Shown here one piece after another: positions 17,629 through 47,207 of a stretch of 62,653 bases of DNA. Origin of the DNA: Deltaproteobacteria bacterium (GTDB taxonomy: Bacteria; Myxococcota; Myxococcia; Myxococcales; 40CM-4-68-19); NCBI GenBank assembly GCA_025358085.1, contig JANYKT010000132.1, positions 1-62,653 of the forward strand, read 5' to 3'. Numbering within the stretch: the first letter of the stretch is position 1; the number at the start of each line of letters is the position of its first letter. Position numbers and translations under genes: made by a program. Under the pieces are notes generated by a model, which did no database searches, had not been told where the DNA came from, and saw nothing but the letters and a program-made list of their open reading frames with translations.

Positions 17629-18339
17629 ATGCACCACTCATACTGGGCTCCGCTTTTCACTGCCGCACTCCTGGTGTCCACCGCCGCGTCTGCCTACGAA
17701 GAGACGGGGGTCGCCCACGGAGGCACCATCCGCGGCCGGGTGACCTTCCTGGGACGCCCGCCGAATCCGCGTGCGACCTTGGTCACGAAGGACGTCACAG
17801 CTTGCGGTAAGACACATATCGACGACGCCTTCCAGGTGTCGAAGGAAGGCGGCGTGCAGGATGTAGTGGTCTACCTGCTGGACGTTCGCTCAGGGAAAAA
17901 ATGGACCGATACTGTCCAGCCCACGCTCGATCAGAAGGGCTGCCATTATCTCCCTCATGTGCAGGTGGTGCGGGACCACGCAACGCTGCAGGTCAAGAGC
18001 AGTGACCCGGTGCTGCACAACGTGCATGCATTCCTCAACGGCAGCACGGTGATCAACATGCCGGTGCCCCCGGCGACGAGCCTGGTACTGCGTCAGAAGC
18101 TCGACAAGCCCGGCGGCATGCAGCTCAAGTGCGACGTGCACGCGTTTATGCGCGGTGGCATTTTCGTCGCAGCGAGCCCTTATTACGCGCTCACCCGCGC
18201 GGACGGCACCTATGAGATCCTCGAGGTCCCACCGGGCAGCTACACCATCGTCACCTGGCACGAGGTCGGGGGGCCGATCAACGAACCCATCGAGGTGCCC
18301 GCGGGCGGCACCGTCACCTGGAATGCGCGGGTGCGTTGA
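17629..18339 (+). CDS. Secreted cupredoxin-like protein with C-terminal carboxypeptidase-regulatory-like fold
   Basis: A 236-aa exported protein (signal ALLVSTAASAY). The mature chain has a conserved pattern of possible type-1 copper ligands: HNVH (His130, His133) and, 35 residues on, KCDVHAFM (Cys168, His171, Met174), i.e. His...Cys-x2-His-x2-Met. Two further Cys (59, 105) could form a disulfide. The last 50 residues (DGTYEILEVPPGSYTIVTWHE) are a CarboxypepD_reg-like beta sandwich. ATG 17629 is set by GAGGGAGG. A close paralogue is encoded at 30178-30879. Its stop directly abuts the chemoreceptor start, so both are co-translated. Likely a periplasmic or surface electron carrier or copper-binding protein; copper binding is inferred. 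Confidence 0.75.
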   Translation: MHHSYWAPLFTAALLVSTAASAYEETGVAHGGTIRGRVTFLGRPPNPRATLVTKDVTACGKTHIDDAFQVSKEGGVQDVVVYLLDVRSGKKWTDTVQPTLDQKGCHYLPHVQVVRDHATLQVKSSDPVLHNVHAFLNGSTVINMPVPPATSLVLRQKLDKPGGMQLKCDVHAFMRGGIFVAASPYYALTRADGTYEILEVPPGSYTIVTWHEVGGPINEPIEVPAGGTVTWNARVR

Positions 18340-20985: not shown

Positions 20986-21804
20986 TCAGCCGAGACGCGC
21001 GAAGGCTGCGGGCGTGAATCCCACCACGCGCTTGAACCAGCGGGTGAAGTGAGGCTGGTCCGCGAAGCCACAATCCAGTGCCACGTCCGCGATCGGAAGA
21101 CCGCGGTCGAGCATTTCGCGGGCGCGGGAGATTCGCAGGTGCAGCTGATAATGGTGCGGCGGCGTACCAACCTGCTCGCGAAACAGGCGCAGCAGGTGAA
21201 AGCCGCTCAGCCCCACCGCATCGGTGAGCTCCGCGAGCGAGACGGGCTCGGCCCAGCGGTCGCGCAAAATCTGGCGCACCCGCACCACTTCGGGCCGCAG
21301 CTTGCGCGCCCGCAGGCGCATCCCTTCGGTCGTCTGCAGGGCCGCAGTCGTCTGGCCGACCAGCGCGGCGAGCGCCGCGGTCTGGAGCGCGGGAGGCTCG
21401 TCGGCGGACATCGAGGCGAGGAGCACTCCGAGTGCTCCGGCCAGCGCGGGAAGGCGAAAGATGCCGGCGTCGAACTGGTCGGCGACGGGGCCCGCGAGCA
21501 GGTTGAACGTTTTTGGGCGGATCAGCACGCGCACCGTGGTGCCACTGGCGCTGAGGCGCTCGAGAACGCGGGGATTGCAATCGGGGCCGTTCAGCATCAT
21601 GTCGCCCGGCTCTACGACGATTTCCTGACTGCCGACCCGGAGCCTGGTGACGCCTTCGACGATGTGCGTGACCTGCACGGCAGGCAGGAAATGGAAAGGT
21701 GGGATCTGCCCCGCGTAGGAACTGCTTGCGATCTCGACCCCTGGAAGTACCGCCGACCGCAACGTGCTGAACACCAACCCTCGTTCGGCGAATGGACTAA
21801 GCAA
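20986..21804 (-). CDS. AraC-family transcriptional regulator
   Basis: DNA-binding regulator, 272 aa from the preferred start. An N-terminal cupin-like sensor (about 1-110; VGSQEIVVEPGDMMLNGPD) is followed by two HTH motifs (VSLAELTDAVGLSGFHLLRLF and PIADVALDCGFADQPHFTRWF, quoted in part as the AraC signature) ending GFTPAAFARLG. I prefer TTG 21804 with GCAGGAG four bases upstream; the longer frame to 21909 adds residues unlike the family. It is divergent from the heme-porin gene at 21983 and is its most likely regulator. Ligand unknown. Confidence 0.92.
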   Translation of the reverse strand: MLSPFAERGLVFSTLRSAVLPGVEIASSSYAGQIPPFHFLPAVQVTHIVEGVTRLRVGSQEIVVEPGDMMLNGPDCNPRVLERLSASGTTVRVLIRPKTFNLLAGPVADQFDAGIFRLPALAGALGVLLASMSADEPPALQTAALAALVGQTTAALQTTEGMRLRARKLRPEVVRVRQILRDRWAEPVSLAELTDAVGLSGFHLLRLFREQVGTPPHHYQLHLRISRAREMLDRGLPIADVALDCGFADQPHFTRWFKRVVGFTPAAFARLG

Positions 21805-21881
21805 TGTACTCCTGCGGCCCCTCCCCGTCGGCCATGTTGTCGAGACAAAAAGAAGAACACAAGGGTCGCAACAAAACGAAA

Positions 21882-21891
21882 CGTTAGCAAT
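21882..21891 (+). promoter_or_regulatory. Candidate regulatory motif CGTTAGCAAT upstream of heme-porin gene 1
   Basis: In the relatively A-rich region between the divergent AraC gene and the heme-porin gene lies CGTTAGCAAT, about 92 bases before the start. The promoter region of the second heme-porin gene has CGTTAGCGAT at a similar distance (98 bases). Nine of ten bases agree. It could be a shared operator, perhaps for the AraC protein; two sites are too few to be sure. Confidence 0.25.
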
Positions 21892-21982
21892 TCTGTTCAA
21901 GACCGTCAAGGCAAAGGGAGCAGACGATTACAGGTAAAGAATCGTCGAAAACCTGACGCTGAGCCCCCCCGGGAGGAGCACG

Positions 21983-23356
21983 ATGAGACGGACGATAGGG
22001 CTCGCTCTTGCTGGACTTACCGCCGGGCTGGTTGCACTCTTCGCCTTCGCTCTTTTCTCGCCTGACGCGATTGCGATTCCTGCGTTCGCGCGAAAGACAG
22101 GGCTCGCGTGCTCCGCCTGTCACGAGGTCTGGCCGCGCCTCAACGACTTCGGCCAGAACTTCCGCGATCGCGGATATCGGCTGAAACGCGATCGTGACGC
22201 TCCGGTCGAGCAGGACCCGGCTTACTGGCCACTCGCCTTCCGTACCACCGCGGGATACGAGTTCGTCCGCCAGGCGATGGTCCAGACGGATAACGGGCCC
22301 GTAACAACGAATACGGGAACCTTTGGCTTCACCGGCCTCGACATCTGGGCGGCGGGCACTCTCGGCGAGCGTCTCTCGTTCGCGATCACGTACACCCCTG
22401 GCCTCAAGGGCACCGGCTTCCAGCTTGGCAGCAATCCTGATGGCAGCGATCTGGAGACGGCGTGGATTGGCCTCAACGATCTCGTCATCCCCGACTGGTT
22501 CAACTTGCGGGTGGGAAAGCACGCGCTCGACCTGCCCATCGACGAGCACCGGCAGATCACGTTGACCTCGGGATACAACGTCTATCATTTCCATCCGCAG
22601 GGCTCGCAGGTGTCGTTCGAACCCGGCAACAACCAGGCGGGCGTGGAGCTTTATGGCCACTCGCCCCTGTCGCGGGTTCGGTACTCCGTATCCCTCATCA
22701 ATGAGCGCGACGCGGCGTTCTTTTCGTCCAACATCATCAGCAATCCCGTGGTCTGGGGCCACGTCACTGCTCAGCAGTATCTCGACAACGATATCCTCGC
22801 CGCGGTCAAGGGCGGGGTCTTCGGCTCCTACGGCCTGCACCCGATCAGCTCGTCCCTCCTGACCCCTCCGACGACGGCAGGTGGGCCGCCAGCCACTCCG
22901 GGCATCGTTCCAAACAGCGGCTTCAACCTCAAGAAACATTACACCTATGGCGCTGAAGGACATCTCCAGTTCTTCAGCACGGTCAATCCGTTGACGCTGA
23001 CCGGTGTGGTCTGGGGGGACTTCCAGGACGCGGAGCTGGGCGGCCTCGCCACCGGGGGACAGGACACGCAATGGTTCGGGGCCTTCCTCGAGGGCGTGTA
23101 TACTTACAACCCGCGGCTCAGCTTCATCGGCCGCTATGAACGCATCCGCACCACGCAGGCGAACGATCCCGCCGCCTATCAGCCGATGGGCGATTTGACC
23201 TCGTTCACCGGCGCAATTCGCCACACCTTCGAGCTTTCCAGCCGCACCGAAGCAGCGCTTCAGCTGGAGCTGACCAAGGGATCGCTCAGAGGCGCCGATT
23301 CCATGACCCTGCCCTCGACTTATACCGGGCTGATTGCTTTCGACTTCACGATGTAA
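21983..23356 (+). CDS. Cyc2-like outer-membrane cytochrome-porin fusion, copy 1
   Basis: A 457-aa exported protein. After the signal (to about residue 30) comes IPAFARKTGLACSACHEVWP, with one c-type heme site CSACH (43-47), followed by LNDFGQNFRDRGYRL. The remaining ~380 residues are barrel-like: alternating strands (FGFTGLDIWAAGTLGERLSF, ITLTSGYNVYHFHPQGS, YTYGAEGHLQFF) ending in Tyr/Phe-rich strands and FDFTM. A single N-terminal heme with the xPxFARxTGxxCxxCH context fused to a porin is the layout of the Cyc2 family (outer-membrane iron oxidases). It is followed 13 bases later by a diheme cytochrome gene. The natural electron donor is not known; Fe(II) is only one option. Confidence 0.75.
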   Translation: MRRTIGLALAGLTAGLVALFAFALFSPDAIAIPAFARKTGLACSACHEVWPRLNDFGQNFRDRGYRLKRDRDAPVEQDPAYWPLAFRTTAGYEFVRQAMVQTDNGPVTTNTGTFGFTGLDIWAAGTLGERLSFAITYTPGLKGTGFQLGSNPDGSDLETAWIGLNDLVIPDWFNLRVGKHALDLPIDEHRQITLTSGYNVYHFHPQGSQVSFEPGNNQAGVELYGHSPLSRVRYSVSLINERDAAFFSSNIISNPVVWGHVTAQQYLDNDILAAVKGGVFGSYGLHPISSSLLTPPTTAGGPPATPGIVPNSGFNLKKHYTYGAEGHLQFFSTVNPLTLTGVVWGDFQDAELGGLATGGQDTQWFGAFLEGVYTYNPRLSFIGRYERIRTTQANDPAAYQPMGDLTSFTGAIRHTFELSSRTEAALQLELTKGSLRGADSMTLPSTYTGLIAFDFTM

Positions 23357-23369
23357 GAGGAGGCGGCAA

Positions 23370-24275
23370 ATGTCCGGATGGAAGCCAGTCCTGCTCGCGG
23401 TCGCGCTGCCTGCAGCGCTCGCGCTCGCGCAGCCGGCGACGCAGGCAAAGCCCGCCGCTGCACCCAGCGCTGCGGCAGCTCCGGGGTCGACGTCGGCCCC
23501 CGCGGCGGCGCCAGCGGCAGCGACCGCCCCGGCCGCGGACCAGCCCGTGGAGAAGCCACCCAATCCGCCGAAGCCGCTTGAGCAGTCGCGGGTCGATCGC
23601 GGACGCCAAGTGTACCAGCGCTTTTGCATCTCTTGCCACGGCGAGAACGGGGACGGACGCGGATACTCCGCGCAATGGCTCAATCCGCAGCCGCGCGATT
23701 TCACCCGCGCGATCTTCAAGTGTCGCTCGACCCCGAGCGGGACGCTGCCGGTCGACGACGACCTGATGCGCACGCTGCGCGAGGGCCTCTACCACACCAA
23801 TATGCCGTCCTGGGCTGTCCTCGGCGATCGCAACATGCGCGACGTCGCCGAGTACATCAAGGTCTTCTCTCCACGCTGGAAAGAGGAAGGTCCAGGCGAC
23901 CCGATCAGCTATGCGCCTGAACCGCAGGACAATGCGGAATCGCGCAAGAAGGGCCAGTCGGTGTGGAACGCGCAGGCCTGCTTCAACTGCCACGGGCAGG
24001 GCGGCAAGGGCGACGGCGCCTCGGTGTCCACGCTCTTCGACGATTGGGGCAACCATATCGTGCCCTTCGACTTCACCAGCAGCCCGCACCGCAAGTGCGG
24101 CAACAGCGACAAGGATCTCTACCGGACCTTCCTGACCGGTATCAACGGAACGCCGATGCCGGCCTTCGCCGATACGCTCACCCCCGAGGACGCCTGGCAC
24201 CTGGTCCACTTCCTCAAGACGCTGCGCGTGGAGAAGACCGAGCAAGGCATCTTCAACCTCTCCATGGGCAAGTGA
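23370..24275 (+). CDS. Periplasmic diheme cytochrome c, partner of heme-porin 1
   Basis: 301 aa: signal peptide, a flexible Pro/Ala linker (about 21-72), then two class-I-like heme domains with CISCH (86-90) and CFNCH (204-208). Likely axial Met are in HTNMPSW (145) and GTPMPAF. The linker suggests a tethered or reaching carrier in the periplasm. ATG 23370 follows GAGGAGG. It pairs with the heme-porin upstream and precedes the oxidase operon. Two extra Cys (FKCRS, HRKCG) are not heme ligands; the first is Trp in the paralogue at 37645. Role inferred: relay from the outer membrane towards the oxidase. Confidence 0.9.
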   Translation: MSGWKPVLLAVALPAALALAQPATQAKPAAAPSAAAAPGSTSAPAAAPAAATAPAADQPVEKPPNPPKPLEQSRVDRGRQVYQRFCISCHGENGDGRGYSAQWLNPQPRDFTRAIFKCRSTPSGTLPVDDDLMRTLREGLYHTNMPSWAVLGDRNMRDVAEYIKVFSPRWKEEGPGDPISYAPEPQDNAESRKKGQSVWNAQACFNCHGQGGKGDGASVSTLFDDWGNHIVPFDFTSSPHRKCGNSDKDLYRTFLTGINGTPMPAFADTLTPEDAWHLVHFLKTLRVEKTEQGIFNLSMGK

Positions 24276-24292: not shown

Positions 24293-24934
24293 TCAGCCAT
24301 CGCGATTGATCAGCAACCCGGCGTCGCGCAGCACCAGGTCGAGGGTGCCTTCGAGCGCGGGGTCGTAGATCCCTCGCAGCCGCAGATGCGCGTCCAGCAG
24401 GAAGAGAGCCTGCGGCGCCGTGCAGCCGCCGTCGATGCGTTTCATCGACAGGGCCACCCCGGGCTCGTCGCCGAGGAACGACCAGAGGCGCGGGTTGGCG
24501 GCGTGCGCCCGCGCCCAGGCGAGCCGCGTCTCCAGCGAGCTCGGGTTGAGCATGAAGGTGACCAGGTGCAAGGCGTCGCCGAGGTTGCGGCCGCGGTGCT
24601 GCAGCTGGCGCATCCGGTCGCTCGAGAGCGCAGCTGCGGCACAGCGGACGTCGAGGAAGTCCGCGATCCAGACGCGGCCGCGCAGTTGCGCGTCGCCGAG
24701 GGGGCGGCCCTGCTGATCGACCGACGCAAAGGACGCCACGGTTCCGAGGAAGGGCAGGGCAGGAGGCAGCGTCTCTCGTACCGCGCGGGCGATTGGCCAG
24801 GAGAAGATGAGGCCGACCAGGACCATCCAGAACAGCGGTCTGCCCACCAGCGCGGCGATGCGTCGCTGCAGGCGGACTTCGGGGGATTCGGGCATCGGCA
24901 CGGTTCTCGGGAGGCGACGGTCCGCGCCGCTCAT
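24293..24934 (-). CDS. SCO1/SenC-like protein with degenerate copper site
   Basis: A 213-aa membrane-anchored thioredoxin-fold protein (TM near 25-45: LFWMVLVGLIFSWPIARAV). The SCO-type core is recognisable: GRVWIADFLDVRCAAAAL where SCO proteins have ...FTRCPTICP, then TFMLNPSSLETRLAWARAH for SVDPxxDTP.... The second Cys of CxxxC is absent, and the His that completes the copper site is not at its usual place (DGGCTAPQALFLLD). Normal SCO loads copper into CuA of oxidase subunit II. This one, although beside a cox operon, may not bind copper in the usual way. The start is uncertain: 24934 or 24895. It is divergent from the cox operon. Confidence 0.7.
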   Translation of the reverse strand: MSGADRRLPRTVPMPESPEVRLQRRIAALVGRPLFWMVLVGLIFSWPIARAVRETLPPALPFLGTVASFASVDQQGRPLGDAQLRGRVWIADFLDVRCAAAALSSDRMRQLQHRGRNLGDALHLVTFMLNPSSLETRLAWARAHAANPRLWSFLGDEPGVALSMKRIDGGCTAPQALFLLDAHLRLRGIYDPALEGTLDLVLRDAGLLINRDG

Positions 24935-24990
24935 AGCACGGTGCCTGTCGGCATGAATGAGGCAGCTCAATTGCGCAAGGAGCGTCATCG

Positions 24991-25629
24991 GTGAGCACCG
25001 CAACGAGCACCGCTGTTCTGGACCAGCCTCCCGCCGCAGCCTGGCCGCCCGATCGGCAACTCGGCACCGCGTCTCCAGCAAAGATCGCGATGTGGATCTT
25101 CCTCGTCTCCGACGGATTTTCCTTCTTCGCCCTTTTACTCGGTTACGGCATCCTGCGCAGCGGCAGCAGCACCTGGCGGCATCCCGGGGAGCCGTCGCTG
25201 AGCATCCCGTTCACCGCGCTGCTGACTTTCATTCTCATCTCTTCCAGTCTCACCGTCGTGCTCGCCTACGACGCCTCCCTGCGCGGCAGGCAGCGCCAGA
25301 CCTCGGCATGGCTCGCTGCCACCGCGCTGCTCGGATCGCTGTTCCTCCTCGGGCAGTACGCGGAGTATTTCGGCATCCTGCACCCGGGACTGATCAAGGA
25401 AGGGCTCGTGCTCGGCAAGTCCTCGTACGCGAGCACCTTCTACGTCATCACCGGCTTCCACGGCGCGCACGTTCTCGCCGGCGTCATCTACATCCTCTTC
25501 GTGCTCGTCTACAGCCTTCGCGGCAAGGCCTCGACGGGCCTGGTCGAGGTGCTCGGGCTCTTCTGGCACTTCATCGATCTCGTCTGGCTGCTCGTCTTCA
25601 CGCTCGTCTACCTGCTCCAGGCGACCTGA
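24991..25629 (+). CDS. coxC: Cytochrome c oxidase subunit III, first copy
   Basis: A 212-aa integral membrane protein with the subunit III fold: MWIFLVSDGFSFFALLLGY in the first helix, STFYVITGFHGAHVLAGV and LFWHFIDLVWLLVFTLVYLL at the end, the family signatures. GTG 24991 follows AAGGAG. It stabilises the oxidase core and proton uptake. It heads the cox operon, an unusual place, and a second subunit III gene comes later (28637). It is three bases from the next gene. Confidence 0.9.
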   Translation: MSTATSTAVLDQPPAAAWPPDRQLGTASPAKIAMWIFLVSDGFSFFALLLGYGILRSGSSTWRHPGEPSLSIPFTALLTFILISSSLTVVLAYDASLRGRQRQTSAWLAATALLGSLFLLGQYAEYFGILHPGLIKEGLVLGKSSYASTFYVITGFHGAHVLAGVIYILFVLVYSLRGKASTGLVEVLGLFWHFIDLVWLLVFTLVYLLQAT

Positions 25630-25631
25630 CC

Positions 25632-25928
25632 ATGACCCCCGACGCGCACGCCCCGGCGGGCACCCGCCGCTATCTCGGCATCTTCGCGGTCCAGGTGCTC
25701 CTGACCGGCGCCGCCATCGGGATCGCCATGATCCCCGGCCACCCGCACGCCATCTTCATCGCGCTCATCGCGATCATGATCACCAACGCGGCCTGGGTGG
25801 CGCTCAACTTCATGCATTTGCGCTGGGAGACTCGCGGCCTGCGCCGGATGGTCGGCATCCCGCTCGTGTTCCTCGCCGTCTACGCGATCGCACTCACGCT
25901 GGAGGCTGCATGGCGGCACCTGCAATGA
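25632..25928 (+). CDS. Cytochrome c oxidase subunit IV-like protein
   Basis: A 98-aa membrane protein with three hydrophobic helices: FAVQVLLTGAAIGIAMI, AIFIALIAIMITNAAWVALNFMHLRWE and VGIPLVFLAVYAIALTLEA. Size, the FMHLRWE end of helix two and position between oxidase subunits match bacterial oxidase subunit IV (CtaF/COX4-pro type), a small assembly or stabilising subunit. It overlaps the next small gene by ATGA. Confidence 0.8.
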   Translation: MTPDAHAPAGTRRYLGIFAVQVLLTGAAIGIAMIPGHPHAIFIALIAIMITNAAWVALNFMHLRWETRGLRRMVGIPLVFLAVYAIALTLEAAWRHLQ

Positions 25929-26086: not shown

Positions 26087-26842
26087 ATGGACTTCCTCGG
26101 ACTGCCTCACGATGCGTCGGTGAACGGTTACCGCATCGACCACCTCATCAACGAGACCAGCTTCTTCGTCATCCTCTTCTTCGTGGTCACCGCGGCGCTG
26201 ATGCTCTACGCGTGCCTCCGCCACGGCGAGCGGCACCAGGCATCGTATGATCACGGCGACACCTGGAAGTCTTTTCGCTGGACCCTCGCCGTTGCCGCCG
26301 CGATCTTCCTCGTGGTGGACGGCCCGCTCCTGGTCGAGAGCCTCACCGACCTGCGCGAGGTCTTCTTTAACTTCGCTTACGCCGAGAGCCAGCCGCAGGC
26401 GGTGCGCATCGAGATCAACGCGCACCAGTGGATCTGGACCGCGCGCTACGCCGGCCCGGACGGAAAGTTCAACACCGCCGACGACATCGTGACCACCAAC
26501 GACGTGGTCATCCCGCAAGGCGCGCCGGTGATCATCCAGATCACGTCCACCGACGTGATCCACTCCTTCAACCTCCCCAACATGCGCATGAAGATCGACG
26601 CGGTGCCGGGCATCGTGAACCGCATGTGGTTCGAGGCGAAGGAGACCGGTCAGTTCGACATCGCCTGCGCGCAGCACTGCGGCTCGAATCATTACAAGAT
26701 GAAAGGCACTCTCACCGTCCTGCCGCGGGCCGACTACAACCGCTGGCTCGGGGAAGCTTCCGCCAACTCGTCGCGCGGCTTCGACCCCGACGACGCTGAA
26801 GCGCACTGGGGCTGGGACTGGGCCGCCTACTCGAGGATCTAG
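26087..26842 (+). CDS. coxB: Cytochrome c oxidase subunit II
   Basis: A 251-aa subunit that accepts electrons from cytochrome c at the binuclear CuA site. Two N-terminal helices (FVILFFVVTAALMLYA and AVAAAIFLVVDGPLLV) anchor a periplasmic cupredoxin domain with AHQWIWTARY-like text (NAHQWIWTARYAG) and the complete CuA motif CAQHCGSNHYKM (Cys194, Cys198, His202, Met205). No heme domain is fused, so it is not caa3-type; a separate cytochrome must feed it. Subunit I starts two bases after its stop. Confidence 0.96.
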   Translation: MDFLGLPHDASVNGYRIDHLINETSFFVILFFVVTAALMLYACLRHGERHQASYDHGDTWKSFRWTLAVAAAIFLVVDGPLLVESLTDLREVFFNFAYAESQPQAVRIEINAHQWIWTARYAGPDGKFNTADDIVTTNDVVIPQGAPVIIQITSTDVIHSFNLPNMRMKIDAVPGIVNRMWFEAKETGQFDIACAQHCGSNHYKMKGTLTVLPRADYNRWLGEASANSSRGFDPDDAEAHWGWDWAAYSRI

Positions 26843-26844
26843 AA

Positions 26845-28632
26845 ATGACCGCGCACAACGAGACGGGCGAGCTCCAGCCCATTCACCACGAGCCGACCAG
26901 CTTCTTCCTCAAGTACCTCTGGTCCACCGATCACAAGATGATCGCCAAGCAGTTCATGTGGGCCGGGCTCGTGTTCCTGCTCATCGGCGGAACGCTGGCG
27001 ATGATGATCCGCTGGCAGTGGGCGTTCCCCGGCGCGCCGGTGCCGATCCTCGGCTCCATCCTGCTGCGCGGATCGGGCGGCGTGATCGGCCCGGCGCAGT
27101 ACATGACCATCTTCACCACGCACGGTTTGATCATGATCTTCTTCGCGATCACGCCGCTGCTCATCGGCATGTTCGGGAACTTCCTCATCCCGCTGCAGAT
27201 CGGCGCGCGAGACATGGCCTTTCCCTGGCTGAACGCGCTCTCCTTCTGGATGTACGCGCTCTCGCTGGTGCTCGTGATCGCCTCGTTGTTCGGCAACCTC
27301 GGCCCGGCCGGCGCAGGGTGGACGACCTATCCGCCGCTCTCGACCAACCTCGGCACGCCAGGCAGCGGGCAGACGCTGATGGTCGCGGCCGTTTTCGTGA
27401 CCGGCGTCGGGTCGATCATGGGCGGCGTCAACTACGTCACGACGATCATCCGGCTGCGCGCGCCTGGCATGGACTACTTCCGGATGCCACTCACCATCTG
27501 GGGACTGTTCCTTACCGCCATCCTCAACGTGCTCTTCGTCCCGGTGCTGGGCTCGGCGGCCTTTCTGCTCCTGCTCGACAGGATGTTCGGGACGCAGTTC
27601 TTCATCGCCGGGTCAGTGACGGGCGCGCCGGCGGGCGACCCGATCATGTTCCAGCACCTGTTCTGGATCTTCGGGCACCCGGAGGTCTACATCCTGATCC
27701 TCCCCGCCTGGGGGATCATCGGCGACCTCTTCTCCTTCTTCTCCCGCAAGCCCGCCAACTTCTACCGCGGCACGGTGGGAGCGATGATCGCCGTGACCGT
27801 CCTCTCCGCGGTTGTCTACGGCCACCACATGTTCCAGACCGGCATGTCGCCGATGCTGGGCAAGAGCTTCATGGTGCTGACGCTCATCATCAGCATCCCG
27901 TCGGTGATGCTGGTGCTCAACTGGCTGCGCACCCTCTGGGGCGGATCGATCCGGCTCACCGTGCCCATGCTGTTTGCGCTCGGCACCATGTTCGTCTTCG
28001 GCGTAGGCGGGCTCACCGGTCTTTACCTCGGCGCCGTGGTCCCGGACATCTATCTGCACGACACGATGTTCGTGGTGGGCCACTTCCACTTCACCATGGC
28101 CGCCGCGTCGTTCCTCGCCACCTTCGCGGGGCTCTACTTCTGGTTCCCGAAAATGTTCGGCAAACGCCTGAACGACACCCTCGGGAAAATCCACTTCTGG
28201 ATGAGCTCAGTCTTCATCACGCTCGTCTTCGGAGGCCAGCTCCTCGCCGGATACGCCGGACAGAGCCGGCGCCTGTACGACCCCTACCAATATAGCTTCC
28301 TCACCCGCCTGCACGGCCTGAACCGGTGGACGAGCTACGCCGCATTTTTGCTGCTGCTCGGCCAGTTCGTCTTCATCTTCAACTTCTTCCGCACCATGTT
28401 CTTCGTGAAGGCGAGCGGGATGGAGGCCAATCCCTGGCAGGTCAGCACGCTCGAGTGGGCCATCCCCTCGCCGCCGCCGTACCACAACTTCGACACCATC
28501 CCGATCGTGGTGCGCGGCCCGCACGAGTTCGCCAACCCGGTGGTGCTCGAGCGGCTGGGGCGCGACTGGATCGGCCAGGCCGAGGAGCTGCCCGAAGCGA
28601 TGCCGGGCAGCGCGCGGAAGGCAGGCACCTGA
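26845..28632 (+). CDS. coxA: Cytochrome c oxidase subunit I
   Basis: Catalytic heme-copper subunit, 595 aa, twelve membrane helices. Ligands are visible: His in TTHGLIMIFF for the low-spin heme; GHPEVYILILP with the CuB His and the cross-linked Tyr of type A oxidases; GHHMFQTGM with the two other CuB His; and VVGHFHFTMAAAS with the two heme His. It reduces O2 to water and pumps protons. It sits between subunit II and a second subunit III. C-terminal soluble tail of about 60 residues; otherwise normal. Confidence 0.97.
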   Translation: MTAHNETGELQPIHHEPTSFFLKYLWSTDHKMIAKQFMWAGLVFLLIGGTLAMMIRWQWAFPGAPVPILGSILLRGSGGVIGPAQYMTIFTTHGLIMIFFAITPLLIGMFGNFLIPLQIGARDMAFPWLNALSFWMYALSLVLVIASLFGNLGPAGAGWTTYPPLSTNLGTPGSGQTLMVAAVFVTGVGSIMGGVNYVTTIIRLRAPGMDYFRMPLTIWGLFLTAILNVLFVPVLGSAAFLLLLDRMFGTQFFIAGSVTGAPAGDPIMFQHLFWIFGHPEVYILILPAWGIIGDLFSFFSRKPANFYRGTVGAMIAVTVLSAVVYGHHMFQTGMSPMLGKSFMVLTLIISIPSVMLVLNWLRTLWGGSIRLTVPMLFALGTMFVFGVGGLTGLYLGAVVPDIYLHDTMFVVGHFHFTMAAASFLATFAGLYFWFPKMFGKRLNDTLGKIHFWMSSVFITLVFGGQLLAGYAGQSRRLYDPYQYSFLTRLHGLNRWTSYAAFLLLLGQFVFIFNFFRTMFFVKASGMEANPWQVSTLEWAIPSPPPYHNFDTIPIVVRGPHEFANPVVLERLGRDWIGQAEELPEAMPGSARKAGT

Positions 28633-28636
28633 CCCC

Positions 28637-29227
28637 ATGCAGAGCGAGGTGATTGCGCTGCGATCGCCGCGCGCGCGGACCGAGACCACCGCCTGGCTGG
28701 GCATGATCATCTTCCTCGGCTCGTGGGCGATGCTCTTCGCCGCGCTCTTCTTCGCCTATGGCGTACTGCGGTTCGGCGCCATGCAGTGGCCGCCCGCAGG
28801 CACGCCCGTACTTCCGGTGCTTCTGCCTGCGGGCAACACCTTGGTCATCCTCGCGAGTAGCGTGGCCCTCCAACTCGGCCTTGGCGCCGCGCGCCGCGGG
28901 CGGGCCTCGCTGGTCGCTCCGGCAGTCGGCGCGAGCCTCTTGCTCGGCCTGGGCTTCCTCGCGCTCCAGACCCTGCTGTGGATGCGGCTGATCGGCAGCG
29001 GGCTTCGTCCGCAGAACGGCCCTTACGCGTCGGTCTTCTACGCCTTCACCGCCTTTCATGCGGTTCACGTCGCGGGCGGTATCGTCGCGCTGGCCTGGCT
29101 GCTGATCCGGGCGCTCCAGGGAGCTTTTACTCCCGCGCGGCATCTCCACCTGCGCCTCTGGACGCTGTATTGGCACTTCGTCGGCGCGGTCTGGCTGCTC
29201 CTTTTCGTCACCCTTTTTGCGCTGTGA
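28637..29227 (+). CDS. coxC: Cytochrome c oxidase subunit III, second copy
   Basis: A 196-aa subunit III-like membrane protein: WLGMIIFLGSWAMLFAALFF at the start, ASVFYAFTAFHAVHVAGGIV and LYWHFVGAVWLLLFVTLFAL at the end. It is related to but clearly different from the copy at 24991. Position after coxA is the usual one. Two subunit III genes in one operon, one at each end, is uncommon; some bacteria split subunit III, but both here are near full length for the short form. Confidence 0.88.
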   Translation: MQSEVIALRSPRARTETTAWLGMIIFLGSWAMLFAALFFAYGVLRFGAMQWPPAGTPVLPVLLPAGNTLVILASSVALQLGLGAARRGRASLVAPAVGASLLLGLGFLALQTLLWMRLIGSGLRPQNGPYASVFYAFTAFHAVHVAGGIVALAWLLIRALQGAFTPARHLHLRLWTLYWHFVGAVWLLLFVTLFAL

Positions 29228-29235
29228 GGATTCCG

Positions 29236-30153
29236 ATGCGTCTCGCGCTCTTGCTGCTCGTCGCCACCTCCTGCGCCCGTGAGGAACGGATCTTCAAGGA
29301 GCCGGTGAAGCTCGGCGGTCAGACGGTCTCCGCCGACACGCTCAACAACGGCCGCGTCGCATATCTGCAGAACTGCCGCGCCTGCCACGGCGACAACGGC
29401 GACGGCAAAGGCCCGGCGGCGCTGGCCATGCGCCCGCCTCCGCGCAATTTCACGCAGGGGTCGTTCAAGTTCGCCGGCGTGCTCGACCAGAAGCTGCCGC
29501 GCGATGAAGACCTGGTGCGCATCGTCCGCCAGGGACTGCATGGCACCGGCATGCTGGGCTGGGAGGTGCCCGATCAGAAGCTTCTGGAAATCATCCAGTA
29601 CATCAAGACGCTGTCGCCCAAATGGCAGGAGGATGACGCGGTCGGCGTGGCGGTCACCATCGCGCCGGATCCCTGGAAAGAAGCGAAGAGGGAAGAAGCC
29701 GTCGCGCGCGGAAAGGTCCTCTACCATGGCTTCGCGCAGTGCCTCGGCTGTCACCCGGGATATGCGACGAAGCAGGAAATTTACGACGCTGGGAAGGCAA
29801 CGCTCGGGTCCGGTACCACCGACTTCCGCGACCATATGTACTTGCCCGAAATCAAGGACAGCGAATACGGCGTGAAGATCCTGCCGCCCGATTTCCTCTT
29901 CAATGAATTGCGCTCGGTCAATCGAGACACGGAGCTGCCGGATCTCTATCGGATCCTGGTCGCCGGCGTGACCGGCGCCGCGATGCCAGCCTGGAATCCG
30001 ATGACCCTGCCCAACAAGGAGGCCGATATCTGGGCGCTGGCGTATTATGTGCGCTCACTGACGCTGCTCAAGGGCACGCCGGGCGCCGAGGAGCTGCACC
30101 AGAAGCTGGCCTCGCAGAACGACTTCGTCCCGCCGCCGGAGGCCGCACAGTAG
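29236..30153 (+). CDS. Diheme cytochrome c lipoprotein ending the cox operon
   Basis: 305 aa. A short signal ends at a probable lipobox (LLVATSC), so it is likely anchored by lipid. Two heme c sites, CRACH (47-51) and CLGCH (169-173), lie in domains that resemble those of the cytochromes at 23370 and 37645 (GDGKGPAAL, PRNFTQGSFKF, IQYIKTLSPKWQ). Likely Met ligands are in GTGMLGW and GAAMPAW. It starts eight bases after the subunit III stop. It is the best candidate for the direct donor to CuA, since subunit II lacks a heme domain. Confidence 0.88.
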   Translation: MRLALLLLVATSCAREERIFKEPVKLGGQTVSADTLNNGRVAYLQNCRACHGDNGDGKGPAALAMRPPPRNFTQGSFKFAGVLDQKLPRDEDLVRIVRQGLHGTGMLGWEVPDQKLLEIIQYIKTLSPKWQEDDAVGVAVTIAPDPWKEAKREEAVARGKVLYHGFAQCLGCHPGYATKQEIYDAGKATLGSGTTDFRDHMYLPEIKDSEYGVKILPPDFLFNELRSVNRDTELPDLYRILVAGVTGAAMPAWNPMTLPNKEADIWALAYYVRSLTLLKGTPGAEELHQKLASQNDFVPPPEAAQ

Positions 30154-30177: not shown

Positions 30178-30879
30178 CTACTTCACCTTGCCATCGAACT
30201 CCGCCTTGCCGCCCGCGGCCACCGTCACCGGCTCGCTGAGCGGACCGGCGGCCTGGTGCCAGGTGGCGATGGTGTAGCTGCCGGCCGGGACGTCCTTGAT
30301 CTCGTAGCTGCCGTCGTCGCCGGTGAGCGCATAGTAAGGATTGCTGGCCACGAAGATACCGCCGGTCATGAAGTTGTGGACGTCGCACTTGAGCTGTTCG
30401 CCACCGGGCTTGTCCAGCTTCTTGGTGAGCACCAGCCCCGGCTGCGGCGGCACGGCGAAGTTGATGACGGTCGAGCCCGCGAGTAACGAGTGCACGTTGT
30501 GCAGCACCGGATCGCTGCTCTTGACTTGCAGCGTCGAGTGGAGCGGCACCACCTGCACCATGGGCTCATAGTGACAGTCCTTCTGGTCGAGCACCGGCTT
30601 CATGTCGCCGGTCATCTTCTTGCCGGTCTTGATGTCGGAGAGATAAACGACCACGTTCTTCACGCCGCCGCCCGGCCCCACGATGAACGTCTCGTCGTCG
30701 CGCGAAGTCCCGCAGACCTTGGGGTCCTTGTTCGTGGCGATCTTCTTCGCCGCGGGAGGCTTGCCGTTGTAGGTGATCTTTCCCGAGATGGTCCCGCCGT
30801 TGCTGACCGGGCTTTCGGTGTATTGCGCTGCCGCCGGCAACGAAAGGAGTAGTGCCGCAGAGAGAAGAAGCGATCGCAT
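30178..30879 (-). CDS. Secreted cupredoxin-like protein, second copy
   Basis: 233 aa, signal LLLSLPAAAQY. It shares with the protein at 17629 the whole architecture and the ligand-like spacing: HNVH (His127, His130), then KCDVHNFM (Cys165, His168, Met171), plus Cys56 and Cys102 and the C-terminal DGSYEIKDVPAGSYTIATWH sandwich. GGAGG seven bases upstream fixes ATG 30879. It converges on the cox operon's last cytochrome gene. The pair frames the heme-porin 1/oxidase genes (one on each side). It is probably a soluble copper protein in electron transfer; not shown. Confidence 0.75.
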   Translation of the reverse strand: MRSLLLSAALLLSLPAAAQYTESPVSNGGTISGKITYNGKPPAAKKIATNKDPKVCGTSRDDETFIVGPGGGVKNVVVYLSDIKTGKKMTGDMKPVLDQKDCHYEPMVQVVPLHSTLQVKSSDPVLHNVHSLLAGSTVINFAVPPQPGLVLTKKLDKPGGEQLKCDVHNFMTGGIFVASNPYYALTGDDGSYEIKDVPAGSYTIATWHQAAGPLSEPVTVAAGGKAEFDGKVK

Positions 30880-32512: not shown

Positions 32513-34231
32513 CTAGAAGAGCGAGTACCGCTGGGCGAGAGGCAACACCGTCGCGGGCTCGCAGGTGAGAAGCTCGCCTTCGGCGCGGACCTCGTAGGTC
32601 TCGGGGTCGACCTGCATGCGCGGCAGTGCATCGTTGAGCTTCATGTCACGCTTGCCGAGCGCGCGGCAGCCGCGCACGCCGAAGAGCCGCTTGCGCAGTC
32701 CGCGGACCGTTCCTTCCTCGAGCGCGCGGCGCGACACGAAGGCCACGCTGGTGGCGCCGGAGGCTCCGAACATGGGGCGCATCGACAGCGGCTGCGGGGT
32801 CGGAATGGACGCGCCCGCATCGCCCATCTGCGCCCAGGCGATGAACCCGCCCTTGATGACGAGCTCGGGTCGCGCGCCGAAGAAAGCCGGCCGCCAGAGC
32901 ACCAGATCGGCGAGCTTGCCCACCTCGATGGAGCCCACCTCGGAGGCGAAGCCGTGCGCGATGGCCGGATTGATGGTGTACTTGGCGATATACCGCCGGA
33001 TACGAAAGTTGTCCGCGGGCGAGGGGCCGGCTCCGGCGCCTGGTCCGGCTCCGATGAGCACCCCGCGTTGCTGGCGCATCTTGTGCGCGGTCTGCCAGGT
33101 CCGGGTGATCACCTCGCCGACGCGGCCCATGGCCTGGCTGTCGCTCGACATCATGCTGATGGCGCCGAGGTCGTGCAGGATATCTTCCGCGGCGATGGTC
33201 TCGGCCCGGATGCGGCTCTCGGCGAACGCCACGTCCTCGGGGATCTCGCGGTCGAGGTGGTGACAGACCATCAGCATGTCGAGGTGCTCGTCGAGGGTAT
33301 TGATGGTCAGCGGCCGCGTCGGGTTGGTCGAGCTGGGCAGGACGTTGGGCTCGCCGCAGACGCGCAGGATATCGGGAGCGTGGCCGCCCCCCGCGCCTTC
33401 CGAATGATAGGTGTGGATCGTCCGGCCCTTGAAGGCTTTGATCGAGTCGTCCACGAAGCCCGACTCATTCAAGGTGTCAGTATGAATCGTCACCTGGACA
33501 TCTTCGGCATCGCCGATGGCTAAACAGCAGTCGATGGCCGCGGGAGTGGTTCCCCAGTCTTCGTGCAGCTTGAGGCCGATGGCGCCGGCGCGGATCTGAT
33601 CGACGAGGCCGGCCGGCAGCGAGCTGTTTCCCTTGCCGGTGAAGCCGATGTTCAGCGGAAGGGAATCGCACGCCTCCAGCATGCGCGCGAGGTTCCAGGC
33701 GCCGGGCGTACAGGTGGTGGCATTGGTGCCGGTGGCTGGGCCCGTCCCTCCGCCCACCCAGGTAGTGATGCCGCTCGCCAGCGCCTCGGGCGCCTGCTGC
33801 GGCGAGATGAAGTGGATATGCGAATCGACCCCGCCGGCGGTGAGGATCAGTCCCTCGCCGGCGATGGCCTCGGTAGTGACACCGACCACCATCCCCTTGG
33901 TGACGCCGTTCATGATGTCGGGATTGCCAGCCTTTCCAATTCCGACGATGCGTCCATGCTTGATTCCGACGTCGGCCTTGTAGATACCGGTGAAGTCCAG
34001 GATCAAGGCGTTGGTGATCACGCAATCGAGCGCCTCTGCGTCGCTCGAGCCTGCGTGCTGGCCCATGCCGTCGCGCAGCACCTTGCCGCCGCCGAACTTG
34101 CACTCATCCCCGTAATGGGTCAGGTCGCGCTCGACCTCTGCGATCAGGTCGGTATCGCCGAGCCGCACGCGGTCTCCCGTGGTCGGACCATACAAGTCGG
34201 CGTAATGGCGCCGGTCGATTTGCCGGCTCAC
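32513..34231 (-). CDS. ureC: Urease alpha (catalytic) subunit
   Basis: The nickel amidohydrolase that hydrolyses urea to ammonia and carbamate, 572 aa. Key parts: [16 protein letters not shown] near the N-terminus, [14 protein letters not shown] with two Ni ligands, [13 protein letters not shown] with the Lys that is carbamylated, [10 protein letters not shown], and the flap [10 protein letters not shown] with the catalytic His. The start is GTG 34231, which overlaps the ureAB stop (GTGA). The frame stays open far upstream but that part is a shadow. All active-site residues I can check are present. Confidence 0.97.
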
Positions 34232-34953
34232 TTCACACCCGCTGCACTGGCGCGGCCGGCCTCGGTGACCGGTCCGGAGGAGAACGCATTGCCGCCCCGG
34301 ACGATGCGCGCCCCGCCCAACTCGACGAGCGCGACCGTCTTCGCTTCGCCCGGCTCGAAGCGGACGGCGGTGCCGGCCGGAACATCGAGCCGCATCCCGT
34401 AAGCCGCGCCGCGATCGAACGACAGCGCGCGATTGGTCTCGTGGAAGGGATAGTGGCTGCCGACCTGGATGGGACGGTCTCCGAGGTTGGTTACCGGCAG
34501 CTGCAGCGTCGCGCGGCCGGCATTGAGGGTCAGCTCCCCGGGGGCGGCGATGACCTCGCCGGGCTGCGGCTCGTCTTCGGGCAGCGCGAACGGCGTCGCG
34601 GGAGGCGGCAGAAAGCTGCCGTACAGCGCCAGCGCGAGATCGCCCTGCGTCAGCGCGATCGGGTGGTGGACGGTCACGAGCTTGGTGCCGTCCGGAAAAG
34701 TTCCCTCGACCTGCACCTCGGCGATCAGGCCGGGCACGCCCGCCATCACCTGCGCGCGGCCCAGGATGCGGCGGCCCAGGTCCATCAGCTCGGCGACGCG
34801 GCGGCCGTCGCGAATGAGCTCGAGCAGCACCGTGGCGATCAGCGCGACCGCTTCCGGATAGCTGAGGCGCAGCCCGCGCGCGAGCCGCTTTTGCGCGAGC
34901 GTGCCCGCGCCGTGCAGCACGAGCTTGTCGATCTCTCTCGGGGTCAGGTGCAT
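34228..34953 (-). CDS. ureAB: Fused urease gamma-beta subunit
   Basis: A single 241-aa chain that joins the gamma subunit (residues 1-100, [21 protein letters not shown] to [18 protein letters not shown]) and the beta subunit (about 125-241, [16 protein letters not shown], then [16 protein letters not shown] and [17 protein letters not shown]). Most bacteria make two proteins; fusions are known from Helicobacter and some actinomycetes. The linker ([17 protein letters not shown]) is Pro-rich. Forms the (ab-c)n holoenzyme with ureC, with which it overlaps by four bases. Confidence 0.95.
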
Positions 34954-36197: not shown

Positions 36198-36322
36198 TTC
36201 CGTTGAGGCTGTTTCCGTTAGCGATAAAATTGTACTGTAATAAGGCAATAAATGTGTAAGTCTGTTTGGTATCAAGTAGTGTTAAGTGGTACATGACAAT
36301 CAAGTCGGGCCCGGGGGGGACC
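36198..36322 (+). promoter_or_regulatory. AT-rich promoter region of heme-porin gene 2
   Basis: About 110 bases markedly poorer in G+C than the surroundings (GATAAAATTGTACTGTAATAAGG), ending with a G-rich ribosome binding site GGGGGGGA just before ATG 36323. At 36216-36225 it has CGTTAGCGAT, nine of ten bases like the motif upstream of heme-porin gene 1 and at nearly the same distance from the start. I do not assign -35/-10 boxes. Confidence 0.45.
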
Positions 36323-37636
36323 ATGAATCTATATGCGAGGCTTCTTTTCGTTGGCGTGCTTTGCGCTTCGATGTCGGCGCAAGCGATTCCACTGTTCGCG
36401 CGGAAGACCGGAATGGCCTGCACTTCTTGTCATGAGGTCTGGCCGCGCCTGACGGACTTTGGACAGCTCTACCGCGACCGCGGCTTCCGGCTCGCGCGAG
36501 GACGCGATGCTCCTACCGAGCAGGATCCTTCCTATTGGCCAATTTCATTCCGCACAGCCGCGGGGTACCAGTTCCTCCGGCAGGCGCTCCAGAGCACCGA
36601 CGCCGGAACGACGGTCGCGCAGACCGGCTCGTTTGGTTTCAGCGGGCTCGACATCCTCACCGCGGGGACGCTGGGCGACAAGCTCGGCTTTCTGGTTGTC
36701 TACACGCCGGGGCTCGGCGGCGCCGGATTTGGACTCGCCCCGCAGGGTGGCGATCTCGAGTCCGCATGGGTGACGGTCATCGAGCCTTTTGCGACCAGCT
36801 GGGTCAACCTCCGCGTCGGAAAGCACGCGCTCGACCAGCCTGTCGACGAGCATCGCACGCTGACGCTCACACAAGGATATGGAGTTTATCACTTCCACCC
36901 GCAGGGGAGCGCGTCGCCGTTCGAGGTCGGACGCAACCAGACCGGGCTCGAGGTCTGGGGACTTTCGGAGGTCGGCCGCCTGCGGTACTCGGTCTCCTTG
37001 TTCAACGAGAATGGGGCCGCGTTTTCCGGTCACGTGTTCAGCTCGCCGACGGTTTGGGGCCACGTGCAGGGCTTACAGCACTTCGACAACGGGCTGCTGG
37101 TCGCGGTCAAGGGCGGACTCTTCGGCGCGGTCGGATTCCACCCGATCCAGCAGGACTCCCTCACGGCACAGGGCGGGGCGCCGGTCCCGGTGGTGGGAAC
37201 GGCGCGCGACCTGCGCTCGTTCCAAAGGCTCGGTGCCGAGCTGCACCTGCGGCTCTTCAGCAATGCGAAGCCGCTCACGTTGACGGGTGTCGTCTTCACC
37301 GCGAGCGAGGATGCACAGCTCTCGCAGGGGCCCACGGGGGCGCCGCAGAACGCGACCTGGCTGGGCGGGTTCGGCGAAATCACCTGGACGCCGGCGCTGT
37401 TCTTGACCGGGCTGCTGCGCGTCGAGCGAATTCGCACGCTCAATCCGGGCGATTCACAATCGCTGGCGGAGCTGGGTGACCAGACCATCATCACCGCCGT
37501 GCTGCGCAGCACCTTCGACATCGCCAACCGGAATGGCTTTGCGCTCCAACTCGAGGCCAGCCGCTCCACCACACGGGTCCTGGGCGCCAGTCCTCCAGTG
37601 ACGACCGTCCTCGCCGCAGTCGACTTCGCTTACTAG
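36323..37636 (+). CDS. Cyc2-like outer-membrane cytochrome-porin fusion, copy 2
   Basis: A 437-aa paralogue of the protein at 21983. Signal to about residue 20 (VLCASMSAQA), then IPLFARKTGMACTSCHEVWP with heme site CTSCH (33-37) and LTDFGQLYRDRGFRL, then about 370 residues of barrel strands with many positions shared (GKHALDQPVDEHRTLTLTQG, YHFHPQGSAS, NPLTLTGVV-type KPLTLTGVVF) and a C-terminal aromatic end (VDFAY). A diheme cytochrome gene follows after eight bases, as in copy 1. The two copies are diverged rather than recent duplicates, which suggests separate conditions or donors. Confidence 0.75.
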   Translation: MNLYARLLFVGVLCASMSAQAIPLFARKTGMACTSCHEVWPRLTDFGQLYRDRGFRLARGRDAPTEQDPSYWPISFRTAAGYQFLRQALQSTDAGTTVAQTGSFGFSGLDILTAGTLGDKLGFLVVYTPGLGGAGFGLAPQGGDLESAWVTVIEPFATSWVNLRVGKHALDQPVDEHRTLTLTQGYGVYHFHPQGSASPFEVGRNQTGLEVWGLSEVGRLRYSVSLFNENGAAFSGHVFSSPTVWGHVQGLQHFDNGLLVAVKGGLFGAVGFHPIQQDSLTAQGGAPVPVVGTARDLRSFQRLGAELHLRLFSNAKPLTLTGVVFTASEDAQLSQGPTGAPQNATWLGGFGEITWTPALFLTGLLRVERIRTLNPGDSQSLAELGDQTIITAVLRSTFDIANRNGFALQLEASRSTTRVLGASPPVTTVLAAVDFAY

Positions 37637-37644
37637 GAGACGCC

Positions 37645-38418
37645 ATGACGAACAACGCAAAGCTATCTGCCATGCTTCTTCTTCTGGCCGGCGCGGCCGT
37701 CGCAGCGGGGAGTGAGCCGCGGCCGATCGACACATCGAAGGCCGATCGCGGGCGGGACGTCTACGGACGCTATTGCATCTCCTGCCACGGCGGCGATGGG
37801 GACGGTCGCGGCTATTCCGCGCATTGGCTCGATCCGGCGCCGCGGGACTTCACAGGCGCGGTCTTCAAGTGGCGCAGCACGCCCTCCGGCGCCTTGCCGT
37901 CTGAAGAAGATATCCTGCGGACGCTGAAGGGCGGCCTCTATCATACGAACATGCCACCCTGGGCCGTGCTCGGGGAGCGTGACCTGCGCGACGTGGTCGA
38001 GTATCTGAAGACCTTCTCTCCACGCTGGCGGAACGAGCCGGTGCCAACCGCGATCGTCATTCCGCTGGAGCCTCCGGACACGAGGGAGTCGCGTGCGGCG
38101 GGCGCGGAGGTCTACAAATCTTCCGGCTGCGCGAACTGCCACGGAGAGCAGGGCAAGGGCGACGGCCCTTCGGCGGCGGAGCTGAAAGACGACTGGGGAC
38201 ATCGCATCGCGCCATTCGACATGACGCGCAGCGAATTTCTCAAGTGCGGTGGCTCGCCCAAGGACGTCTACCGCGTCCTCATGACTGGCCTCAACGGCAC
38301 GCCGATGCCCTCGTTCGCCGACCAGTTGAAGGCAGAGGAGGCATGGCAGCTCGTCCACTTCGTCCGCAGCGTCGTCAGGCCGGATTCGCCGATCAAGCCC
38401 GCGATCGTGCAACGCTGA
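37645..38418 (+). CDS. Periplasmic diheme cytochrome c, partner of heme-porin 2
   Basis: 257 aa, exported (MLLLLAGAAVAAGS), two heme c domains with CISCH (44-48) and CANCH (162-166), likely Met ligands in HTNMPPW and GTPMPSF. It is closely related to the cytochrome at 23370 (CISCHGGDGDGRGYSAHWLD versus CISCHGENGDGRGYSAQWLN) but lacks that protein's long Pro/Ala linker. Forms a two-gene unit with the heme-porin gene eight bases upstream. Confidence 0.9.
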   Translation: MTNNAKLSAMLLLLAGAAVAAGSEPRPIDTSKADRGRDVYGRYCISCHGGDGDGRGYSAHWLDPAPRDFTGAVFKWRSTPSGALPSEEDILRTLKGGLYHTNMPPWAVLGERDLRDVVEYLKTFSPRWRNEPVPTAIVIPLEPPDTRESRAAGAEVYKSSGCANCHGEQGKGDGPSAAELKDDWGHRIAPFDMTRSEFLKCGGSPKDVYRVLMTGLNGTPMPSFADQLKAEEAWQLVHFVRSVVRPDSPIKPAIVQR

Positions 38419-38708: not shown

Positions 38709-41576
<2,868 letters not shown>

Positions 41577-47037: not shown

Positions 47038-47207
47038 TTTGGCTCCCTTCTCGTTTCCTTCGAAGATGAATACGTAAACCGCGGTCAAGACCCGCCACGC
47101 GAAGCGTTGGCAGGGTGCCGCGGGCTGATTTCATCCAGCGCAGGCGGTGAGGCTCACGGAGGGGTCCAGCGAGCCGGCTATGATGCCCAGGCTCGGGAGG
47201 TGGGGCG
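47038..47207. promoter_or_regulatory. Divergent promoter region between the giant protease and the ECF sigma gene
   Basis: 170 bases that must hold promoters for both directions. GGGAGG at 47195-47200 is the ribosome binding site of the sigma gene. The stretch next to the protease gene is less GC-rich (GAAGATGAATACGTAAACC). ECF sigma genes often autoregulate, so a shared promoter motif is likely but I cannot define it from one example. Confidence 0.4.

Follow-up and report, generated by a model that had tools for sequence, protein, structure and literature searches.

We propose that two adjacent genes on a 62,653-nucleotide contig of a Deltaproteobacteria bacterium (the window, by which we mean this whole stretch of DNA) probably stand at the start of an electron-input chain, which would draw on a donor dissolved outside the cell, Fe(II) being the likeliest, and pass its electrons through an aa3-type oxidase to O2. 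The genes encode a Cyc2-like fused monoheme cytochrome-porin (copy a; 21983-23356, forward strand) and a putatively periplasmic diheme c-type cytochrome (23370-24275, forward strand). The evidence was obtained by computation and consists of the gene content, the heme and copper motifs of the encoded proteins, a neighbourhood conserved in relatives and a predicted barrel.

The Cyc2-like proteins and their diheme partners

Copy a starts with an ATG, ends in a stop codon at 23354-23356 and encodes 457 aa. As read from the sequence, its hydrophobic N-terminus ends in SPDAIA and is followed by IPAFARKTGLACSACHEVWPRLNDFG; the signal peptides of this protein and of a second Cyc2-like protein in the window (copy b) were judged by eye, from a hydrophobic N-terminus with a terminal A-x-A. 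The single heme site of copy a, AIPAFARKTGLACSACHEVWPRL, has its CxxCH coded at 22108 and sits in the stretch AIPAFARKTGLACSACHEVWPRLNDFG, after which come about 380 residues of alternating strands with no further CxxCH. The earlier note had described one protein with an N-terminal CxxCH in an IPAFARKTG context ahead of about 380 barrel-like residues, and the open reading frame at 21983-23356 on the forward strand is that protein. Its assignment to the Cyc2 family is likewise supported by the motif, the single heme and a porin-like 16-strand prediction with OprP and OprO as best matches. Cyc2 proteins are defined by AxPxFAR[Q/K][T/Y] shortly before a single CxxCH, a PxL after it, a length of at least 365 aa and a 16-strand OprP/OprO-like porin (PMC8406198). 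The first element reads AIPAFARKT in copy a, within the longer pattern AIPAFARKT-x3-CSACH-x3-PRL, and AIPLFARKT in copy b; the heme site and PxL read CSACH-EVW-PRL and CTSCH-EVW-PRL, respectively, with one CxxCH in each protein, and the lengths including the signal peptide are 457 and about 439 aa. Three residues separate the motif from the CxxCH in both copies and in FARQTG-type proteins of the phylum, the published spacing being five by a count that is unclear (PMC8406198). Searches of the copy a protein against PDB sequences, Pfam and NCBIfam gave no family or sequence match, a profile search of the PDB found nothing, and the plasmid collection searched held no match.

Structure prediction, named in the earlier note as the check on the barrel, did return one. 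The AF2 model of copy a, built from a shallow alignment of six sequences, contains exactly 16 strands over residues 84-455 at low confidence (mean pLDDT 45.9), with better scores in its C-terminal half (pLDDT mostly 55-72). The best solved match found by Foldseek is OprP (4.8e-5), and a second structural alignment places OprO and OprP at the top (Z 16.9 and 16.6), with other general or 16-strand porins scoring almost equally, within about 1.5 Z of these two. OprP and OprO are the templates reported for Cyc2 (PMC8406198), and the model is consistent with a 16-strand porin of this kind. Compared with A. ferrooxidans Cyc2, Cyc2-PV1 and Cyt572, the window proteins have the same motif, the single CxxCH, the PxL, a signal peptide, a predicted 16-strand OprP-like barrel and no other heme, but they belong to a separate clade of Myxococcota, marked by the signature CHEVWPRLNDFG...RDRGYR.

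The diheme cytochrome follows copy a at a distance of 13 bases, from the stop codon to its ATG at 23370, exactly as the earlier note had it. It is 301 aa long, its CxxCH sites are coded at 23624 and 23978, and it matches Pfam Cytochrome_CBB3 (PF13442) twice (1.2e-23). Its best solved match is PDB 6h5l_B, at 1e-48 and with two heme domains over 211 residues; no entry of the c4 type, the type of the diheme Cyc1, is found among its PDB matches at 1e-5. We take chain B of 6h5l to be the Kuenenia diheme redox partner of an HAO-like octaheme protein. Both are proteins of two heme domains, whereas the partner here is a Cyc2-like porin rather than an octaheme enzyme, and the protein encoded beside copy a has a Pro/Ala linker. 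This Pro/Ala-rich stretch of about 50 residues, to which attention had been drawn earlier, is indeed present ahead of the first heme domain. As a functional trait we rejected it: the linker is not a conserved part of the protein, because it is absent from the copy b partner and much shorter in relatives.

A CxxCH scan of all long frames in the window finds only five cytochrome genes, namely two Cyc2-like/diheme pairs and a further diheme protein at 29236-30153. The second pair, absent from the earlier note, spans 36266-38418 on the forward strand. Copy b (36317-37636, within the frame 36266-37636) aligns with copy a over 452 columns at 51% identity (4e-145) and is followed after 8 nt by a diheme cytochrome gene (37645-38418; PF13442, 2.1e-23), whose product is 56% identical to the copy a partner. 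No oxidase adjoins copy b in the stretch read. The region that separates the oxidase cluster from the second pair contains urease structural genes at 32.5-35.0 kb, among them a single ORF at 34228-34953 (reverse strand) that codes for a fusion of the gamma and beta subunits. Immediately past the second pair come two very long ORFs, 38709-41576 (955 aa) and 41623-47088 (reverse strand, 1821 aa), the latter with a lipoprotein-like start.

Relatives and conserved gene neighbourhoods

A profile made from the two window Cyc2-like proteins was run over 195 Myxococcota genomes, of which 40 had a match; each of the 30 proteins compared has one heme. In the tree, both window copies fall in a group of ten rows (group A, support 99/98), and a third Cyc2-like copy of the window genome, on another contig, falls in a group of 14 rows (group B, support 100/100) with the typical signature FARKYGTSCxTCHTVYPKLTPFGEAFRRNG. 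The tree also holds two proteins of the FARQTG...CHTQFPELTAFGR type (L065 and L069), one of them from the same family as the window genome, with a c-type-cytochrome-like stretch just upstream. Profile comparison relates groups A and B over most of their length at 2.2e-31 and over the barrel alone at 3.3e-11 (reversed control, 0.24). Between group A and the FARQTG type the similarity is confined to the heme end and does not extend to the barrel, which fits the poor conservation reported for the Cyc2 barrel (PMC8406198). A scan of named genomes gave four loci, and the nearest named relatives are Deltaproteobacteria MAGs, in line with the placement in Myxococcota and with the earlier view of the host as a probable myxobacterium.

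The aerobic oxidase that the earlier note had placed downstream of the first pair lies there on the same strand. Its genes encode a first subunit III (24991-25629; NF050119, 2.4e-31, under the curated cut-off), subunit IV (25632-25928; PF03626 COX4_pro, 44.1 bits, above cut-off), the CoxB subunit II (26087-26842; TIGR02866, 147.7 bits, at cut-off) with an intact CuA motif, CAQHCGSNHYKM, the CoxA subunit I (26845-28632; PF00115, 433.8 bits) with its GHPEVY signature, and a second subunit III (28637-29227; NF050119, 3.9e-33, again under the curated cut-off). The second diheme cytochrome (29236-30153, forward strand; PF13442, 6.5e-14) has a lipoprotein-like signal, LLLVATSC. Between pair and oxidase intervenes a gene on the opposite strand for a SCO1-like protein (24293-24961, start codon uncertain), recognised by a weak PF02630 match below cut-off and by alignment with intact SCO homologues. 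Its CxxxC is degenerate, as is the copper motif of this protein in group-A clusters (C-AAAA in the window, CISC in L045, CGAEG in L009); CxxxC is intact in the SCO proteins of L047 and of the Cyc2-less loci L077-L079. A gene convergent with the cluster (30178-30879, reverse strand) encodes a cupredoxin-like protein that also has a carboxypeptidase-regulatory domain and by profile matches CuA and type-1 copper domains. Residues invariant in the alignment offer His127/His130, Cys165, His168 and Met171 as candidate type-1 copper ligands; the AF2 model of this protein, with a pLDDT of 41, was set aside. A paralogue, 59% identical, is encoded at 17629-18339 (forward strand), and neither cupredoxin-like gene appeared in the earlier note. 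A match to the Leptospirillum cytochrome 579 model reached 46 bits against a cut-off of 280 and was discarded as superfamily-level only. Divergent from copy a is a gene for an AraC-type protein (20986-21909, reverse strand; HTH_18, 2.5e-22), a possible regulator, a homologue of which is also found near SCO-like and Cyc2-like genes in L009.

In group A the pair is conserved beyond the window. Besides the two copies of the window, seven further group-A loci have a diheme cytochrome gene of the same family directly 3' of the Cyc2-like gene; for a more distant protein (G102) a diheme cytochrome gene lies directly upstream instead. The gap between the two genes is 8-13 nt in five genomes (G000, G001, G039, G054 and G104), and because of this recurrence we do not regard the two-gene order as a product of chance. 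In five genomes including that of the window (G000, G001, G007, G039 and G104) the pair is linked to CtaE/CtaF/CoxB/CoxA/CtaE2/diheme/cupredoxin genes. In G001 the Cyc2-like, diheme, CtaE, CtaF, CoxB, CoxA, CtaE2 and diheme genes run co-directionally over some 7.4 kb and the cupredoxin gene converges on them; G007 has the same order split over contigs, the second of which starts inside the diheme gene, G104 has the cupredoxin and SCO genes ahead on the same strand, and in G039 the pair is placed after the oxidase genes. The link between pair and CuA oxidase is kept in relatives and is co-directional in three of them. Pairs with no oxidase in the stretches read occur in G054, G056, G057 and G058. 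The oxidase cluster and its diheme protein are also found with no adjoining Cyc2 gene in other Myxococcota (L076, L078 and L079), a finding absent from the earlier note. We therefore rejected the cluster as Cyc2-specific and regard it as an oxidase common in the phylum, onto which the pair has been added. A neighbourhood made up of a globin-coupled-sensor-like protein, a phospholipase-D-like gene and two response regulators is shared, at 54-64% identity, by the group-A pair of G054 (L044) and the group-B locus of the window genome (L052, on contig C73), as though one type of Cyc2 had taken the place of the other.

Group B has a different cassette, absent from the window itself: in 11 of its 14 loci (L051, L052, L055-L061, L066 and L068) the Cyc2-like gene occurs with genes for a cupredoxin and alternative complex III. 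Pfam Copper-bind is above cut-off in the two cupredoxins tested, ActA matches the solved subunit A of the complex at 1e-26, and ActD scores 113.6 bits against its own Pfam family. The cupredoxin and act genes of L066 are about 4 kb from the Cyc2-like gene, not adjacent. The third copy of the window genome is accompanied by the cupredoxin and ActA-E genes; its contig breaks off inside ActB, and a further contig of the same genome, presumably its neighbour, opens inside ActB and goes on to ActC, ActD and ActE. A contig edge falls within the cupredoxin gene of L070, and L062 and L067 have the cupredoxin gene and no act genes.

A possible electron route and its rivals

How might these parts work together? 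In the mechanism that we infer, from its outer-membrane location and direction to the order of carriers and the donor, a Cyc2-type outer-membrane barrel of 16 strands, its one heme domain seated at the periplasmic opening, would take electrons from a dissolved one-electron donor. The diheme cytochrome encoded beside it would collect them in the periplasm and deliver them to the CuA site, either directly or with the second diheme lipoprotein, the cupredoxin-like protein or both as intermediates, and the neighbouring aa3-type oxidase would reduce O2. The third Cyc2-like protein, together with its cupredoxin and an alternative complex III run backwards, could feed the quinone pool. In Acidithiobacillus the quinone pool is fed by a bc1 branch. 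We tentatively extend the mechanism to a two-branch uptake in some Myxococcota, a possibility to which we give less credence than to the chain itself. Electrons would run downhill to O2 from one Cyc2-like clade, by way of the diheme cytochrome and aa3 oxidase, and uphill to quinone from the other, by way of the cupredoxin and alternative complex III. Such a division would parallel the rus/pet split of Acidithiobacillus and be built from different parts. Fe(II) is the most likely donor because all three biochemically tested Cyc2 proteins oxidise it (PMC8406198). RuBisCO was not found in the window genome, which shows no sign of Calvin-cycle lithoautotrophy; with neither RuBisCO nor MtrB/PioB, the organism, if it oxidises iron, would likely be mixotrophic or use another carbon route.

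The rus operon of Acidithiobacillus has the order cyc2-cyc1-cup-coxBACD-rus-ctaTBA (PMC10654088). In both systems a Cyc2-type gene is followed by a diheme cytochrome and then a CuA-type aa3 oxidase, with a cupredoxin-type protein, and the three components cyc2, diheme cytochrome and aa3 oxidase occur together in the window and in four other genomes. Here, however, the diheme partner has the Kuenenia protein as its best match among solved structures, an SCO-like gene is present, there are two subunit III genes and an extra diheme lipoprotein, and the copper protein, cupredoxin-like but different from rusticyanin, also contains a carboxypeptidase-regulatory domain and is encoded convergently in the window. 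It is in gene order that the group-A clusters resemble the rus operon. Conduits of the MtrCAB/MtoAB/PioAB type also move electrons across the outer membrane, by means of a separate decaheme inside a 26-strand barrel (PMC8406198). PF11854, the family of the MtrB/PioB barrel, matches nothing anywhere in the genome assembly, which is 98% complete, and we rejected a conduit of this type on that ground. Neutrophilic iron oxidisers have cyc2 and act genes in one organism and are viewed as using them together (PMC4643136). Cyc2 and alternative complex III share one organism here as well, but the third, group-B gene is physically joined to the cupredoxin and act genes.

The same machinery might instead serve another donor, such as Mn(II), Cu(I) or redox shuttles. 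Doubt has been expressed that Cyc2 homologues far from the tested ones all oxidise iron (PMC8406198), Cyc2 has also been proposed for Mn(II) oxidation in Manganitrophaceae (PMC9040806), and copper-binding partners are encoded nearby; given that each Cyc2 protein tested so far oxidises Fe(II) and that the window gives no hint of another metal, we consider a different donor rather unlikely. Electrons might also travel outwards when O2 is short, leaving the quinone pool by complex III and crossing the periplasm on carriers, until the Cyc2-like protein hands them to an external acceptor. For group B this reverse direction is possible because alternative complex III, with which the third copy is encoded, normally oxidises quinol and passes electrons to a carrier, and the iron reducer Anaeromyxobacter is a myxobacterium. 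Against export speak the fact that several genomes link the window pair with a CuA oxidase that reduces O2, and the action of tested Cyc2 proteins as oxidases of their donor (PMC8406198), and it seems to us distinctly improbable. That the pair has no part in energy metabolism, and serves surface detoxification of Fe(II) or Cu(I), or redox sensing, beside a housekeeping oxidase by chance, would accord with the oxidase clusters that lack Cyc2, with the pairs found away from the oxidase and with the opposite-strand SCO-like gene that breaks strict co-transcription in the window. A linkage present in five genomes and three families, in more than one arrangement, is difficult to ascribe to chance, however, and the diheme partner is always kept, so that we rate this explanation as very improbable.

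Implications for Myxococcota

What would an electron-input chain of this kind mean for the phylum? Cyc2 as such is not new to it, contrary to the novelty suggested earlier: a published Cyc2 tree already holds deltaproteobacterial sequences that its authors assigned to Myxococcota (PMC12442345). Our searches, which covered open-access literature, brought up neither a rus-like cluster of Cyc2 and oxidase genes described for Myxococcota nor any account of Cyc2 linked with a cupredoxin and alternative complex III. For Zetaproteobacteria, several candidate carriers and interchangeable oxidases have been proposed as the Cyc2 route. Little is settled about the periplasmic partners of Cyc2 beyond Acidithiobacillus, and a linkage conserved across families names likely ones, a diheme cytochrome and aa3 oxidase in one clade and a cupredoxin and alternative complex III in the other. 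With the partners so named, the route from the outer membrane to O2 and to quinone becomes directly testable. Predation is what Myxococcota are better known for, along with the iron reduction of Anaeromyxobacter. Our observations point to metal- or electrode-fed respiration, little studied in this phylum, and could widen the list of iron-oxidising bacteria.
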